64,000 bases of DNA from Gemmatimonadales bacterium (GTDB taxonomy: Bacteria > Gemmatimonadota > Gemmatimonadetes > Gemmatimonadales > GWC2-71-9). Every line of letters begins with the position of its first letter. Position 1 is the stretch's first letter. The notes beneath the pieces were generated by a model. It saw only the letters and a list, made by a program, of their open reading frames with translations, did not search any database and was not told the DNA's origin. Shown here one piece after another: positions 25,910 to 32,676 of the stretch. The stretch is taken from assembly GCA_036500345.1 (NCBI GenBank), contig DASYCE010000026.1, positions 124,001-188,000 of the forward strand. The letters run 5' to 3'. The position numbers and the translations under genes are program-made.

Positions 25910-26482
25910 ATGCCCCGCGGAACCTCGATCCACATGCTTGCACTGATCTCGTTCGCCGCTGCTGCCGCGGCCGCCGCCCAGGGCGACACTCCCCGCGAAC
26001 TTGTCACCGCCATCGTGGTAGGCCGCACCGAGACAGCGCAACTCTCCCTCAGCTGGGATGGAGCGCTCGCCGATGGCGGGCCACTTCTCGGCCACTCTAT
26101 CCCGCTCGACACTCTGTGGGGGATCGGTTCGACCGCGCCACCGGTCCTGACCACCACGCTGCCGCTGCGACTCGGAGCGCTTCAGATCCCGGCCGGTTCG
26201 TTCAATCTCTGGGCCAGGATCACCGCGGATTCGGCGACGCTGGTCGTGACGAGCGGTGGAGGCGACAACGCTCGGACGTTCAACCCGGGACTCGTGATCG
26301 GTACCGCGCCACTCACCGCCGATTCATCAAGCGCGCCGGTCCTGCGGCTCACGATGCTGGTCAGGATCCAGCGCGTCGGACCCGACACCAACGGCGTCGA
26401 ATCCGATCGGAGCGGGCGTCATGCGACGATCATTCTGCACCCCGGAACGGTCGCGACGCTGATCATCGCGTGGGGCGATTCA
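25910..26482 (+). CDS. Exported DUF2911-like protein whose own stop codon is missing
   Basis: The ATG at 25910 (or a better-placed ATG at 25934) starts a signal peptide rich in Ala with a cleavage point near AAAQ/GD. The mature part has a W-x-G ... T ... L-G-x-x-x-I-PAG-S-F-N-L-W pattern (residues about 70-105), resembling DUF2911, and ends with TLIIAWGD, like the last strand of that family. No stop follows: the frame stays open to 27193, antisense inside the oligopeptidase gene, and that tail has no protein-like character. A shift into the next frame would terminate at 26511. I give the end of the credible domain. Real read-through, recent mutation and sequencing error cannot be told apart. 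Confidence 0.45.
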
Positions 26483-28555
26483 GGTGGTCGGTGCCGCTGT
26501 CGGCGTTGTAGCCTCGGTGAGGATGAACGCGTAGTCGGTCGCAATCTCCCGCAGCCGGTCGTATCGCCCCGATGCTCCGCCGTGCCCCGCGCCCATGTTG
26601 GTCAGCAGGAGCAGCGGCGTCGATCCCTCCTTGAACTCCCGCAGCTTTGCCACGTACTTCGCCGGCTCCCAGTACATCACTTGCGAATCGTTGAGCGACG
26701 TCCGCACCAGGATCGCCGGATACCGCGCCTTGCGCAGGTTGAGATACGGATCGTACGCGCGCATCCAGCCGAACTGCTCGGCGATCGCCGGATTGCCCCA
26801 CTCCTCATACTCGCCGACGGTGAGCGGCAGCGACGGATCCGACATCGTGTTGATCACGTCGACGAACGGCACCTGGCTCACCACGGCGCGGAAGAGGTCG
26901 GGACGAAGATTCGTCACCGCCCCCATCAGGAGCCCGCCGGCACTCCCCCCTTCGATCACCAATGCATCGCGCGCGACGATGCCACGCTCGATCAACGACT
27001 CCGCCGCCTCGATGAAGTCGGTGAAGGTGTTCATCTTCTCTTCCATCCGGCCGGCATCGTGCCACTTCTTCCCCAGTTCGCCGCCGCCGCGGATGTGGGC
27101 GATCGCGACCACCATCCCGCGATCGAGCAGCGAGAGCCGATTCGACGAAAACGCCACTGGATAGGAGTACCCGTACGATCCGTAGCCGTGTAGCAGGCAC
27201 GGCGCGAGATGGCCGGTGTCGCGGCGGCGCACGATCGACACCGGAATCGACGTACCGTCGGCAGCGGTGGCGTGGATCCGCTCGGAGACGTATGCGGAGG
27301 AATCGTATCCGCCGACCACTTCCTGCTGCTTGAGGAGGGTCCGGTCGTCACTGTCGAGATCGCAGTCGAAGACCGACGACGGCGTGACGAGCGACTGATA
27401 GCCGATGCGGATCCGGTCGACGTCCCACTCGGGATTGGAGTGGAGGTATGCCTCGTATGCCGGTTCCGGAAACGTCATCCGGCGCCATCCTGGCGCATCG
27501 ACCCTCGCCACCGCGATCTGCGGAACGCCGTCCTCCCGTTCACTCACCACGAGGTGCCGCGCAAAGCAGTCGTGTCCTTCGATCATCACCGTGTCGCGGT
27601 GCGCAAGGATTTCGCGGAACCGTTCCCGTCGCACATCGCCAACGGGTGCCGTCACCAGCCGGAAGTTGCGGCCGGTGTCGTTGATCCGGATAACAAACAC
27701 ATCGCGGTACGGCTCCGGATTCGACGGCCAGATGAAATGATCGATGTCGTATTCGATCTCCGCCTCGCGCGGGAGCAACGTTTGCCACGAAGCCGCGCCG
27801 CCGGCCGCCGGCAACACGCGTGTCTCGCTGGTGGTGTGGCTGCCGCAATGCAGGACGAGCCACGCGCGGCTCCTCGTGCGCCCGACGTGAACGCCGAACG
27901 CCTCGTCATCCTCCTGGTAGATCAGCGTGTCAGCCGGCTCGCCAAAACGATGGCGCCAGAGCTGGTGTGACCGCTTGGTCACTTCGTCTTCAACGGTGTA
28001 GAAGAGTTCGCGGCCGTTGGTGGTCCACGCGATCGAGGTCACCCGTTCCCGGCGCAGGCCGAGGAGGTCGCCGGTTGCGAGGTCCTTGACCTCGAGGGTG
28101 TACTGCCGAAAGCCGGTCTCGTCGGTGGAATAGGCAAGGAATCGCGCATCATCGCTCACGACGTAATCGCCCAGCGCCATGAACGGCTTCCCGGCTGCGA
28201 GGAGATTCAGGTCCAGGACGATCTCTTCGGCGCCGCTGTCCATCGACTCACGCCGCCGGCACTGGATCCCGTACTGCTTCCCTTCCTCGGTCCGCGTGTA
28301 GTACCAGTAACCATCGCGGCGGACGGGGACCGAGAGGTCGGTCTCCTTGATCCGGCCGAGCATCTCGCGATAGAGGGTCTCCTGGAGCGAATCTGTCGGA
28401 GCGAGCACCTCGTTGGCGTACGCGTTCTCGGCTTCGAGGTAGGCAATCGTCGCCGGATCGTCCTTGTCGCGGAGCCAGGCGAAGTCGTCGGTGAAGGTCT
28501 CGCCGTGGCGAGTGGTGGATGCAGGATGGCGTGGAGCGCGGGGTGGAGTCGGCAT
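26480..28555 (-). CDS. Oligopeptidase B-like S9A serine peptidase
   Basis: A cytoplasmic prolyl-oligopeptidase-family enzyme, 691 residues, with an N-terminal beta-propeller and a C-terminal alpha/beta hydrolase. The latter shows LLHGYGSYGYSYP, IAHIRGGGELGKKWH, the nucleophile in VIEGGSAGGLLMG, LVRTSLNDSQVMYWEP (Asp region) and NMGAGHGGASGRYDR (His). These are hallmarks of oligopeptidase B (cleavage after basic residues in short peptides). The start is the ATG at 28555; an in-frame TTG five codons upstream is less likely. No signal peptide. It converges on the DUF2911-like gene, whose frame runs into it. Confidence 0.92.
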   Translation of the reverse strand: MPTPPRAPRHPASTTRHGETFTDDFAWLRDKDDPATIAYLEAENAYANEVLAPTDSLQETLYREMLGRIKETDLSVPVRRDGYWYYTRTEEGKQYGIQCRRRESMDSGAEEIVLDLNLLAAGKPFMALGDYVVSDDARFLAYSTDETGFRQYTLEVKDLATGDLLGLRRERVTSIAWTTNGRELFYTVEDEVTKRSHQLWRHRFGEPADTLIYQEDDEAFGVHVGRTRSRAWLVLHCGSHTTSETRVLPAAGGAASWQTLLPREAEIEYDIDHFIWPSNPEPYRDVFVIRINDTGRNFRLVTAPVGDVRRERFREILAHRDTVMIEGHDCFARHLVVSEREDGVPQIAVARVDAPGWRRMTFPEPAYEAYLHSNPEWDVDRIRIGYQSLVTPSSVFDCDLDSDDRTLLKQQEVVGGYDSSAYVSERIHATAADGTSIPVSIVRRRDTGHLAPCLLHGYGSYGYSYPVAFSSNRLSLLDRGMVVAIAHIRGGGELGKKWHDAGRMEEKMNTFTDFIEAAESLIERGIVARDALVIEGGSAGGLLMGAVTNLRPDLFRAVVSQVPFVDVINTMSDPSLPLTVGEYEEWGNPAIAEQFGWMRAYDPYLNLRKARYPAILVRTSLNDSQVMYWEPAKYVAKLREFKEGSTPLLLLTNMGAGHGGASGRYDRLREIATDYAFILTEATTPTAAPTT

Positions 28556-28703
28556 GTCGAAATCTAGCAAGCGCTGGAATTGATTCGACTCGCGGAAGCC
28601 TCCCGACCCTTGCGTTTTCTAGTACCCGCCCCCGGATCCGCTCGAAGTATCTTGCTCCCGTCGGCGTTCACAGCGCCCCGTTGCTGCCGGGCACGGAGGT
28701 AAG

Positions 28704-29420
28704 ATGTCGGACGATATGGGACTCCTCAGAATCGATGTAACGGTGGAGAATCAGTTGCGCCCGGGGGAGTCACGCCTGCTGCACGGCGTACTGGTCGACA
28801 CCGGCGCGGAACTCAGCTGGGTCCCGAAAGGGATCCTGGAATCACTCGGCATCGAGCGCGTCAAGCAGATCGCTTTCCGCCAGGCCGATGGCTCGAGGCT
28901 CGAACGCTGGATCGGCTTCGGGATTCTCCGCGCCGCCGGCGCAGTGACGATCGACGAGATCGTCTTCGGCGAGCCGCGGGACCTCGTCCTCCTCGGCGCG
29001 CGGTCACTTGAGGGAATGAACCTCAAGGTCGACCTGGTCGAACGCCGACTCGTCGCCGGCGGCCCCATCATCGTCGCCGCAGCGGCGCCGAGTCCACCTC
29101 ACTCGACCCGCGATTCAACACTTTCGGGTCGCGGTCGAACCCTTTCGGGTCCGAACCCGGCACATTCACTTCGCTATCCGAGAGAAGAGTTCACGTTCCA
29201 GCCCCATTCGATTCGCTATCCCACTCACGCGGGTCCGAGGCGAACTCGCTCAGCGCCGTGTCGCACTCACTCGGCTCCGTGTCGCACTCACTCAAGCCCG
29301 TGTCGGGCTCACTCAGCGTCCGTTGCCACTCATTTGGTCCCGACGCACGCTCACTCGGCTCCGTGGTCGACTCACTTGGCTCTGTGTCGCCCTCACTTTG
29401 TCATGAGTCGCGCTCGTTAG
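28704..29420 (+). CDS. Retropepsin-like aspartyl protease domain with repeat-encoded tail
   Basis: Start at 28704 is fixed by GGAGG four to five bases upstream. Residues about 1-125 resemble a clan AA (retropepsin-like) aspartyl protease: LHGVLVDTGAELSWVPKGIL carries the DTGA active-site motif, and LLGARSLEGMNLKVDLVERRLV matches the usual 'LLG...L......D...R.L' end of single-domain bacterial versions. From about residue 174 the frame enters the 21-bp tandem array, so the tail is a run of heptads such as THSAPCR and stops at 29420 while the array continues. The tail is probably a by-product of the array, not a designed domain. Substrate and partners unknown; no signal peptide. Confidence 0.7.
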   Translation: MSDDMGLLRIDVTVENQLRPGESRLLHGVLVDTGAELSWVPKGILESLGIERVKQIAFRQADGSRLERWIGFGILRAAGAVTIDEIVFGEPRDLVLLGARSLEGMNLKVDLVERRLVAGGPIIVAAAAPSPPHSTRDSTLSGRGRTLSGPNPAHSLRYPREEFTFQPHSIRYPTHAGPRRTRSAPCRTHSAPCRTHSSPCRAHSASVATHLVPTHAHSAPWSTHLALCRPHFVMSRAR

Positions 29421-29703
29421 GTCCTGTTACGGGCTCATTCAGGTCGCTGTCGCACTCACTCGGGCTTGTTTCACCGATATTCAGTCCCCTCGCACGGCCA
29501 TTCAGTCCTGCGCGACGCGAAGCGGTGGCCTTACCGCCTCATTCGGGTCGCTGTCACACCCATTCGGTCCTGCGCCGACAGAAGCGGTGCCGTGACAGAC
29601 TCATTCAACCCGGTGTCAAGTTCACTCAGGCCCAAGTCAGACTCACTCAGGTCTGAGTCACACTCACTCGGGTCCGAGTCACACTCACTCAGGGCCCCGT
29701 CGC
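29222..29703. repeat. 21-bp degenerate tandem array, about 23 units
   Basis: Units of 21 bases with consensus near CACTCACTCGGxxCxGTGTCG start at 29222, 29243, 29264, 29285 and so on in strict register, with one 20-base unit at 29516-29535. More degenerate units occur from about 29090. Units are diverged, most keeping a CTCA(C/T)TC core. In units 29641 and 29662 the core is a dyad (ACTCAG-GT-CTGAGT and ACTCGG-GT-CCGAGT) with a matched base-pair change. The array crosses the stop of the retropepsin-like gene at 29420. The 29421-29880 interval holds only this array and the tmRNA terminator. There are no spacers, so it is not CRISPR. Confidence 0.85.
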
Positions 29704-29843
29704 GCTGACTCACGACGTGGTCGCGTCTCTCCGGTCTCGCGTCCCCGCCGATCGCTCCCATCTCACCCTCGTTCACGGCTGCGCCACCGCCGGCGAGCCG
29801 CTTCCCGACCAATCCGATCGCCGCACCGATCAGTTAAGCACCA

Positions 29844-29869
29844 AGCGCCACCCCGTCAGGAGTGGCGCT
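29844..29869 (-). terminator. Hairpin downstream of tmRNA
   Basis: A perfect 8-bp stem (AGCGCCAC / GTGGCGCT) with a 10-base loop begins 12 bases past the tmRNA 3' end on the minus strand. It is followed by only a short, interrupted T-rich stretch. Position and stem support a transcription terminator; the weak T tract makes intrinsic strength uncertain. Confidence 0.6.
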
Positions 29870-29880
29870 CAGCTGTTCAG

Positions 29881-30241
29881 TGGAGGCGCAGGGAATCGAA
29901 CCCTGGTCCGAATCAGCGTCCGAGACCGCATCTACGTGCGTAGGCTTCGCTTCAAGCTGAGCATCGGACCGGGGCGAAGCCACCCTTTCCGACACCTACC
30001 TCCGTCAGAGCTCAGGTTCTGGAGTGGAGGACTCCAGCGCCCTATCCCGGATTGTCGATCCCGTAACGCCGTCCCGGAAAGGCCTCGTTACAGGAGGAGC
30101 GTGAAGCGAGCGTTAGCTCAGCTTACGCAGCCATCGCCAGATCAGTGTTGGCAATTGTGTTTTTCCGACAGGATTTACCAGGATATCGGACCTGGGCACG
30201 CGACGATGTCTTCTACCAACCCGTCGAAGCCGATCGCCCCC
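29881..30241 (-). ncRNA. ssrA: Transfer-messenger RNA (tmRNA)
   Basis: Rescues stalled ribosomes. The 5' end (from 30241) reads GGGGGCGATCGGCTTCGACG, the typical tmRNA opening. The 3' end has the T-arm GGTTCGATTCC and acceptor CGCCTCCA, pairing with 5' GGGGGCG over seven positions including one G-U. The tag frame is 30152-30123: GCC AAC ACT GAT CTG GCG ATG GCT GCG TAA, giving ANTDLAMAA, with the hydrophobic AA end needed for proteolysis. The terminal CCA is not encoded (CTG follows), so CCA addition is required. A one-piece molecule of 361 bases with pseudoknot-forming sequence after the tag. It is divergent from the S9 peptidase gene. Confidence 0.95.
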
Positions 30242-30324: not shown

Positions 30325-32676
30325 ATGCGTTTTTCCGTCGCTCCGCTGGCGCTGGCCGCCACTATGGCGATTTCGCCCTCTCCGGCGGCCGCACAGTCCC
30401 TCCCGCTGCGGCAGTCACATCTCGACGCCTCTGCCCGCGACGCCAAATTCGACCTCCCCCTCGACTCGACCTCCGACGCCCGCTGGCTCGGCGGCGGTGC
30501 CGGCGCGCCCCGATGGGACGTGGAGGGCCAGTGGGCCTATTTCACCTACGACACCACCGTCCGGGTGACCAGCGCGGTGGCACCCGAAGCGCAGTGGTGG
30601 CGCGTCTCGCGCGACGGGAAGAAGGTCGAACCGGTCGCCCGGGATCTCGCGACGCGGATCCCCGCCAACCCCGCCCGCAGTCGCGACGGATCGCGCGCCA
30701 CCTGGTTCGCGCGCGGAGAATTGCGGTACTGGGAGCGTGGAAAGGGTGATCGAACGCTGCAGGTCCGCAGCGACGCCGTCTCTCCCTCCTGGTCCCCCGA
30801 CGAACGCGAGATCCGCTTCACCTCCAGCGGCGATCTCTATGCCATCGATCCCGCCACCGGCGAGCAGCGTCAGCTCACTCGCGCCTTCACCCGCACCGAT
30901 CCGCCGAAGGATTCGAAGGCCAACGCCGAGCTGAAGCGCGAACAGCTCGACCTCTTCGACTTCGTCCGGCGCCACAAGGAGGAGAAGGACAGCGCCGACG
31001 CCCGCCGCCGCACCGACCCGGCACCGGAGCCGTTCGTGATTCCGCGCCGCAAGGACGAGACGGTTTCCGATCTCTCCCTCTCCCCCGACCTTCACTACTC
31101 GACGTACATCGCTGCACCGAAGGTCGACGAGATTCAGACCCTCTTCGCCGACTATGTCAACGATTCCGGCGTCGTCTACACGCGCACCTCGCGCGCCAAG
31201 GTCGGCGCGCCGATCGCCAACTCGCGCGCCTGGATCGTCCGCAACGACTCGTTCGCGATCGCCGATTCGGTCAAGCCGGTTGTGGTCGACACTGCCGGCT
31301 TCGGCAAGGCGGTCCACGCCAATGCGATCTCATGGAACCGCCAGGGGACGCATCTCGTCGCGGAATTCGCGTCGAACGACTACAAGGATCGCTGGGTCGT
31401 TCTCGTCGATCCTGCCACGGGAAAGCAGCTCCGCACGCTGCATCACGAACACGACGACGACTGGATCCTGGAAACACCCGGCGTCACGTGGATGAACGAC
31501 GGCGAGCATATCGCCCTCACGTCGGAGAGCAGCGGCTGGATTCATCTCTACCTCGTCGGCATCGACGGTTCGCACAAGGCGTTGACCGATGGCGACTGGG
31601 AAGTCCGCGACGCGCAGCTCTCGCGCGACGGGACGACCTGGTGGCTCACCACGTCGATGGCCCACCCCGACGAGACGCATCTCTACACCATGCCCGCCAT
31701 GGGCGGCCCGATGACCCGCATCGACTCGCTCGGTGAGGGAGAGGTCACTGCGACGCGCGCACCGGACGATCGCGGGATGATCCTCCGCTGGGGGAATCCG
31801 CGAGAGCTCACCGATCTCTATCTCGTGTCGTCGATCGGCGCCAAGCCGGTGCGCGTCACGAAGAGCGGCTCCGACGCCTTCTACAGGATCGCATGGCCGG
31901 CGAGCGACTTCGTCTCCTTCGACGACGATCAGGGGAAGCCAGTCTTCGCGCGCGTCTACCGCCCTGCCAAGCAGGCGGCGACCCGTCCAGCAGTTCTCGA
32001 AATTCACGGCGCCGGTTACGCCCAGGCGGTGCACAAGACGTTCGCCGGCTCCAGCGCACACGGCGGCGCGCTCTACGCCAAGTATCTCACCGACCTCGGC
32101 ATCACCTACATGGTGATCGACTACCGCGGCAGTTCAGGGTACGGCCGAGACTCGCGCGTCTCGATCTACCGCGACATGGGAGATCACGATGTCGGCTCGG
32201 CGCTGGCCGCTATCCCCTTCCTTCGCGACAAGTACCATGTCAACCCCGGGCATGTGGGCCTCTTCGGCTGTTCGTACGGCGGCTTCTACACGCTGATGGC
32301 GCTCTTCCGTCACCCGGGAGTCTTCAAGGGCGGCGTGGCGCAGTGCGCCGTCACCGACTGGGCGCACTACAACCACTGGTATACCGCGCGCATCCTCAAC
32401 GGCTCGCCGGCAGAGGACACCGCCGCGTATCGCACGTCGTCGCCGATTCATTACGCCGCTGGCCTCAAGGATTCGCTGATCCTGATGCACGGCCTTGTCG
32501 ACAACAATGTCGAGTATCAGGACGCAGTGCGTCTGGTGCAGCGGCTGATGGAACTCGGCAAGAGCTTCAACTTCGTGACGTACCCGATCGAGGCGCACGG
32601 GTGGGTGAACGGGATGTCCAAGAAGGATTCGCAGCGGCGGATGACGGCGCTCTGGCGGGAGATCCTGCTCAAGTAA
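30325..32676 (+). CDS. Exported DPP-IV-like S9B prolyl peptidase
   Basis: 783 residues. A signal peptide (MRFSVAPLALAATMAISPSPAAAQS) is followed by a WD/beta-propeller region and a C-terminal alpha/beta hydrolase. Active-site blocks: GLFGCSYGGFYTLMALF (nucleophile Ser in GCSYGG), HGLVDNNVEYQDA (Asp) and PIEAHGW (His). ITYMVIDYRGSSGYGRD is the typical S9 strand before it. The family removes X-Pro dipeptides or cleaves after Pro in the periplasm or outside. The start ATG at 30325 is chosen because the open frame upstream runs across the tmRNA 5' end. It converges on dusB with a short repeat between. Confidence 0.9.
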   Translation: MRFSVAPLALAATMAISPSPAAAQSLPLRQSHLDASARDAKFDLPLDSTSDARWLGGGAGAPRWDVEGQWAYFTYDTTVRVTSAVAPEAQWWRVSRDGKKVEPVARDLATRIPANPARSRDGSRATWFARGELRYWERGKGDRTLQVRSDAVSPSWSPDEREIRFTSSGDLYAIDPATGEQRQLTRAFTRTDPPKDSKANAELKREQLDLFDFVRRHKEEKDSADARRRTDPAPEPFVIPRRKDETVSDLSLSPDLHYSTYIAAPKVDEIQTLFADYVNDSGVVYTRTSRAKVGAPIANSRAWIVRNDSFAIADSVKPVVVDTAGFGKAVHANAISWNRQGTHLVAEFASNDYKDRWVVLVDPATGKQLRTLHHEHDDDWILETPGVTWMNDGEHIALTSESSGWIHLYLVGIDGSHKALTDGDWEVRDAQLSRDGTTWWLTTSMAHPDETHLYTMPAMGGPMTRIDSLGEGEVTATRAPDDRGMILRWGNPRELTDLYLVSSIGAKPVRVTKSGSDAFYRIAWPASDFVSFDDDQGKPVFARVYRPAKQAATRPAVLEIHGAGYAQAVHKTFAGSSAHGGALYAKYLTDLGITYMVIDYRGSSGYGRDSRVSIYRDMGDHDVGSALAAIPFLRDKYHVNPGHVGLFGCSYGGFYTLMALFRHPGVFKGGVAQCAVTDWAHYNHWYTARILNGSPAEDTAAYRTSSPIHYAAGLKDSLILMHGLVDNNVEYQDAVRLVQRLMELGKSFNFVTYPIEAHGWVNGMSKKDSQRRMTALWREILLK

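Follow-up and report, generated by a model that had tools for sequence, protein, structure and literature searches.

A degenerate array of exact 21-bp period beside tmRNA and a recurrent class of such arrays in Gemmatimonadota

The 64,000-nucleotide stretch of Gemmatimonadales DNA analysed here (the window) carries a tandem array of degenerate 21-bp units next to the tmRNA gene. The array belongs to a recurrent class with constant period and free sequence, which is linked to one gene family and has been block-copied at least once. This class suggests a DNA element of a kind not recognised before, with a putative function. The reading we prefer, tentatively and with slightly less than even confidence, is that the window array is an orphan of the non-coding class of arrays with a period of exactly 21 bp, which at home would be a putative phased platform for a protein. 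The features of the locus are as follows.

28704 to 29102, forward strand: retropepsin-like (gag-asp protease-like) domain; the homologues L041-L055 stop at its end, at ..DAGPAPAAAA*
29103 to 29420, forward strand: C-terminal extension encoded by the array in the same ORF, with the stop codon at 29418-29420; the tail is absent in homologues
29096 to 29745, forward strand: degenerate array of 31 units (cyclic profile, autocorrelation and TRF)
29498 to 29618, forward strand: 62-bp block in two copies within the array, holding both 20-bp units (TRF period 62, 76% matches; cyclic profile)
29844 to 29869, reverse strand: GC-rich hairpin AGCGCCAC..GTGGCGCT just past the tmRNA 3' end, read by eye, a possible terminator without a T run
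29880 to 30241, reverse strand: tmRNA (ssrA) with tag ANTDLAMAA (ARAGORN; Rfam RF00023, 147.5 bits)

A cyclic profile of 21 columns places 31 units in a 21-bp register on the forward strand, with approximate edges and with the first six and last two units being the weakest. The consensus is CACTCACTCGG(G/T)(T/C)CCGTGTC(G/A). The preliminary description had given about 23 copies at 29222-29703; the tandem array is confirmed, and its extent is revised, as six more in-register units precede 29222 and the start lies 126 bp ahead of the one given there. Over 29090-29720, the autocorrelation peaks at lags 21, 42, and 63 (0.538, 0.509, and 0.474, respectively), all other lags between 3 and 69 staying at or below 0.36. 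The period of 21 is thereby supported but not its full strictness, since the units at 29516 and 29557 have 20 bp and the 62-bp block is duplicated. TRF, proposed as a check of period and copy number, finds the array but breaks it into pieces, one of them the period-62 block; the copy number of 31 is that of the cyclic profile. The units are very degenerate, with a mean identity of 65% to the consensus and 52% between pairs. The period of exactly 21, neighbouring lags at background, and at least seven degenerate units place the array in the class. The units vary throughout and include no spacer segment, so that a constant repeat with variable spacers, as in CRISPR or TIGR arrays, is not seen. 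The tmRNA is the only match to Rfam covariance models in the window, with none over the array.

The sequence of the window unit is private to this locus in the DNA searched. The exact unit has no second occurrence in this genome, and the unit pattern gave no match in the genome contigs and five isolated single matches, but no array, in a viral pattern scan. The unit profile detected no other array among 395 genomes of the phylum, six weak matches being judged chance, and no convincing DNA homologue of the unit or array was found in plasmids or phages. The period, on the other hand, recurs with unrelated units. A period scan, which favours arrays with few indels and was run on largely metagenome assemblies, gave six period-21 loci in 838 kb of this genome (the window, L127, L137, L143, L154, and L160). 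Nine unselected relatives had 0 non-coding period-21 arrays in 1,059 kb (p 0.007 versus this genome), a contrast that depends on the sample, as arrays at genes of the linked family were later found elsewhere in G004 and a weak one lies inside the G009 sample below the scan threshold. A seventh array, L253, came to light only through the L127/L154 profile; when examined, it turned out to be a strong period-21 array, which is an independent check of the class. At a retropepsin-like locus of another genus (L086 in genome G114), there are two 21-bp arrays of unrelated sequence. Palindromes of the form TGTC..GACA were seen by eye near them.

Ten arrays pooled give identities of 0.557 and 0.525 at lags 21 and 42, respectively, while lags 20, 22, 41, and 43 are at background. 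It had been proposed that 21 bp matters as about two helical turns. The background values at lags 20 and 22 in the window and nine other arrays, together with the recurrence of the period in unrelated units, agree with this proposal, and two-turn spacing is supported as a conserved property of the arrays. The arrays lie at scattered, mostly intergenic sites, and their units are mostly unrelated between loci. Shared unit families are L127, L154, and L253 (z 5.6-8.1) and L137 and L160 (z 5.4), and one unit family extends across genera, joining L123 and L106a (z 4.3). The window unit has no clear relation to units of the other arrays, and searches with the profiles of three unit families brought up arrays in this genome and in no other. 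Four candidates (L175, L209, L273, and L309) were set aside as coding or low-complexity, and the twelve-base "arrays" in G045 are runs of masked N. A Planctomycetota contig (L343:6500-6680) has 7-base units, CCCCTGA/CCCCTGG, which were caught as a multiple of 7 and are of a different kind. No description of such arrays was found in the open-access literature.

The linked gene family, termed A8 here, should be noted. The L137, L143, and L253 arrays are each located a short way upstream of a gene; the three genes are paralogues, and the sampled DNA of this genome holds no other copy. The proteins have about 230 residues with an N-terminus RRKLxMAxRV and a proline-rich C-terminus, and no convincing match was found in Pfam, NCBIfam, PHROG, or PDB. 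The family occurs in 12 of 61 related genomes, with seven copies in this genome, and was found neither in plasmids nor in viral contigs. Its loci are L348, L360, L366, and L368-L371 (G000), and L349-L353, L361-L363, L356, and L357 (relatives). Among the 17 testable copies, from ten genomes, 15 have lag 21 as their best upstream period, versus 11 of 120 control flanks (Fisher 2e-11), a count that leaves out L354 (203 bp of flank), L355 and L364 (match beginning deep inside the gene), the partial matches L358, L359, and L365 (<120 residues), and L367. The upstream arrays comprise 5/7 in this genome and 10/10 in G002, G004 (two), G007, G009, G011, G012, G022, G037, and G052. The pooled A8 arrays show an identity of 0.498 at lag 21 and 0.491 at lag 42, with 0.28-0.30 at neighbouring lags; their sequences cannot be aligned from one copy to another. 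All that several paralogues share is a short element with TGTCC...GGACA half-sites, which lies between array and gene (L253:1922-1972, L143:18305-18261, and L137:1153-1183). The 64-kb window contains no A8 gene (best E 0.78), and the window array is therefore called an orphan.

The fate of spacing and sequence can be compared directly in L127:15971-16268 and L154:17871-17574, which are inverted block copies on different contigs. They share 298 gapless bp with 83 substitutions (72% identical), and a longer alignment adds one 42-bp gap and one 1-bp gap. The 83 substitutions favour neither a codon position nor any of the 21 columns, and no frame is free of stops in both copies, indicating that the copies are non-coding and keep no fixed motif. 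Column overdispersion within arrays is weak. Phase breaks amount to 0-0.69 per 100 bp in the class versus 1.06-2.92 in arrays of non-triplet period from the same scan (p 5e-5), where short periods carry less information and may inflate the control rate; they are also fewer than in arrays of triplet period (p 9e-4). In simulation, neutral decay reproduces the observed phase breaks only when the frequency of indels is about 1% of that of substitutions. Constraint on the spacing is likely but not proven, as it depends on the neutral indel ratio of this organism.

The main rival is an ordinary minisatellite, in which a single burst, after the species had diverged, multiplied a 21-bp unit whose copies then decayed by point mutation and have no function. 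We judge this reading a real possibility, though on balance a doubtful one. Unit identity in the window falls little with distance (0.54 between adjacent units and 0.46 eleven units apart), as one burst predicts; the locus is absent in sister genomes, the substitutions in the L127/L154 pair are uniform, and the neutral model does fit at the indel ratio given above. The transition fraction is only 0.40, however, which is low for plain mutational decay, and the phase breaks are rarer than in control arrays. Moreover, the same period recurs with unrelated units, at seven loci in this genome and also in nine others, and is tied to one gene family. A burst followed by neutral decay accounts neither for the constant period nor for the gene link. 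The preliminary description held that the array would be an ordinary decaying minisatellite if compensatory changes showed no excess over unpaired ones and sister genomes had no related array at the locus. Neither the excess (see below) nor such an array was found, yet the label misses a class that is multi-locus, gene-linked, and constant in period.

The immediate surroundings bear on another reading, that the array is a junction scar, made or carried in with the insertion of a foreign gene, e.g. by repetitive synthesis at a break. The retropepsin-like ORF (28704-29420, 238 aa) runs into the array, which begins at the point where most homologues end (...DAGPAPAAAA*), and its stop codon lies inside the array, as had been described. 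The arrival or growth of the array is best read as having removed the original stop. PF13975 is matched weakly by 12/12 members of this family (best E 1.3e-6); for the window copy, which has the DTGAELSW motif, the score of 20.4 bits falls short of the cut-off of 28.2. Two S9-family prolyl oligopeptidase-type genes (26480-28570 and 30325-32676) flank the tmRNA and array, and in several sister genomes one of the two still adjoins the tmRNA. In G005 and G006, about 100 bp separate the S9-peptidase gene from the tmRNA, with no retropepsin-like gene and no array; in G004, another gene lies between them, again with neither. Among the species compared, the array is present at this locus only in the source species. 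The link to ssrA is incidental, because the other arrays are found elsewhere and a search for related arrays near that gene in sister genomes gave none. The array had also been placed downstream of a tmRNA terminator. The tmRNA is as described, while the terminator may correspond to the hairpin read by eye, and a scan for T-run terminators called none at the tmRNA 3' end. In a sister species, intergenic short repeats (GGTGAACGG, CCAACGACTAACGA, and GTTCTCTGTTCTCGG) are found around the tmRNA (L011:1360-1470 and 1950-1990).

Empty sites in sister genomes were found at three array loci, where the array borders a gene locally absent in the sisters: the retropepsin-like gene between the S9 peptidase and tmRNA, a glyoxalase-like gene (by eye) between trpS and IMPase, and a cation-efflux gene beside iscS. 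These borders are what a junction scar would leave. However, the DNA flanking other retropepsin-like genes (about 1.0 Mb) has no such array except in the G041 and G114 genomes, and the upstream placement at A8 genes is unlike random junctions. We therefore consider a junction scar improbable. The retropepsin-like family is multi-copy in Gemmatimonadota, often with several copies per genome (L270-L347), occurs also in Verrucomicrobia, Planctomycetes, Acidobacteria, and Gammaproteobacteria, and looks horizontally mobile. The gene was rejected as the carrier of the arrays, as most homologues have none. On the far side of the array, 29787-29811 on the reverse strand weakly resembles, in inverted orientation, the 3' end of a sister species' retropepsin-like gene (28 bp, 86%, E 0.001). 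It was not accepted as an inverted fragment of that gene, the DNA match being weak and the protein profile giving no support.

The preliminary description explained the array by compensatory selection for a dyad, either as an array of dyad-symmetric operators or as an RNA with many small hairpins. The two cores on which this was based, given there at 29641 and 29662, are present in the adjacent units 29640 and 29661 as ACTCAGGTCTGAGT and ACTCGGGTCCGAGT, respectively, with an A-T/G-C swap at paired positions. They are a single instance. In an ungapped alignment of 27 units, the proposed dyad pairs in 59.3% of cells versus 60.2% in shuffles, and pairs changed on both sides number 3 versus 3.6; compensatory change thus shows no excess. 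A wider dyad is slightly better, with 13 further pair types versus 10.2 and 28/500 shuffles as high, and the excess is not convincing. On either strand, the fold of the whole array is only a little better than that of shuffles (z about −2), and strong palindromes exist in the arrays L106a, L106b, and L123 of relatives. No covariation was found, however, in two clearly palindromic arrays of relatives, and the consensus is not palindromic in the window (p=0.21), L127, L137, L154, or L160. Dyad covariation was rejected, and selection for a dyad or hairpins is disfavoured as very improbable.

Least credible of all is a heptad-repeat C-terminal tail of the retropepsin-like protein, to which 15 units in frame, the equivalence of 21 bp to seven codons, and a pN/pS of 0.67 in that frame (null 1.02 ± 0.19) would point: pN/pS is equally low past the stop codon, so that translation does not explain it, the full array has stops in all six frames, retropepsin-like homologues lack the tail, other arrays are intergenic, and the L127/L154 pair has no codon-position bias. 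The view that the array is not only a coding repeat is thus upheld by the equal signal after the stop and by the homologues without a tail.

Several known systems resemble the class in part. Bacterial minisatellites, or VNTRs, likewise have tandem units of about 20 bp, are species-specific, and change length by whole units, whereas the present class keeps one exact period over unrelated units and genera, is tied to one gene family, and has much more degenerate units than typical VNTRs. Plasmid-origin iterons and parC-type centromere arrays are direct repeats near 20 bp, about two turns apart, upstream of the gene for their binder. The present arrays share the repeat size, spacing, and position upstream of a gene, with binding putative here, but are chromosomal, occur several per genome, and have up to 33 very degenerate units of locus-private sequence. 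No Rep, ParM, or ParR homologue and no replication or partition gene was recognised beside the arrays examined. TIGR-Tas (PMC12045711) and CRISPR arrays also lie beside a dedicated gene family; here, in contrast, no constant repeat alternates with variable spacers, and the linked protein has no convincing Pfam match. Beggiatoaceae have intergenic TAACTGA direct repeats, one fixed 7-bp sequence of unknown function (PMC4679880). Many intergenic direct-repeat arrays in one genome are common to both cases, but what is fixed in the present class is the 21-bp period, the sequence being free.

Returning to the phased-platform reading, a home array would offer a protein a row of sites along one face of the DNA, with two helical turns from each site to the next. 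The candidate binder is perhaps the product of the linked family itself, with a possible role in autoregulation or compaction. Arrays can be block-copied to new sites, and the window copy would most likely have been detached from its gene and be drifting. The multi-site protein-binding array proposed earlier would fit this as to two-turn spacing and not as to dyad sites, the binding being putative. Against this reading, the L127/L154 columns have no fixed binding motif, the window has no A8 gene and its unit no clear relation to other arrays, the scan is biased to arrays with few indels, and A8 arrays are not alignable between copies. In a wider form, which we hold more loosely as a possibility, Gemmatimonadota would carry an undescribed two-part element composed of a fast-evolving two-turn array and an A8 gene just downstream, with putative recognition mainly by spacing or by co-evolution, and with arrays that detach and spread as orphans.

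It is by sequence that most repeat families are recognised. In this class the conserved property is the period, and similarity searches therefore miss it. If the link between array and gene is true, it would allow selection on the helical spacing of DNA to be tested where the sequence is almost free, and it would open a way to the function of a protein family that has no annotation.
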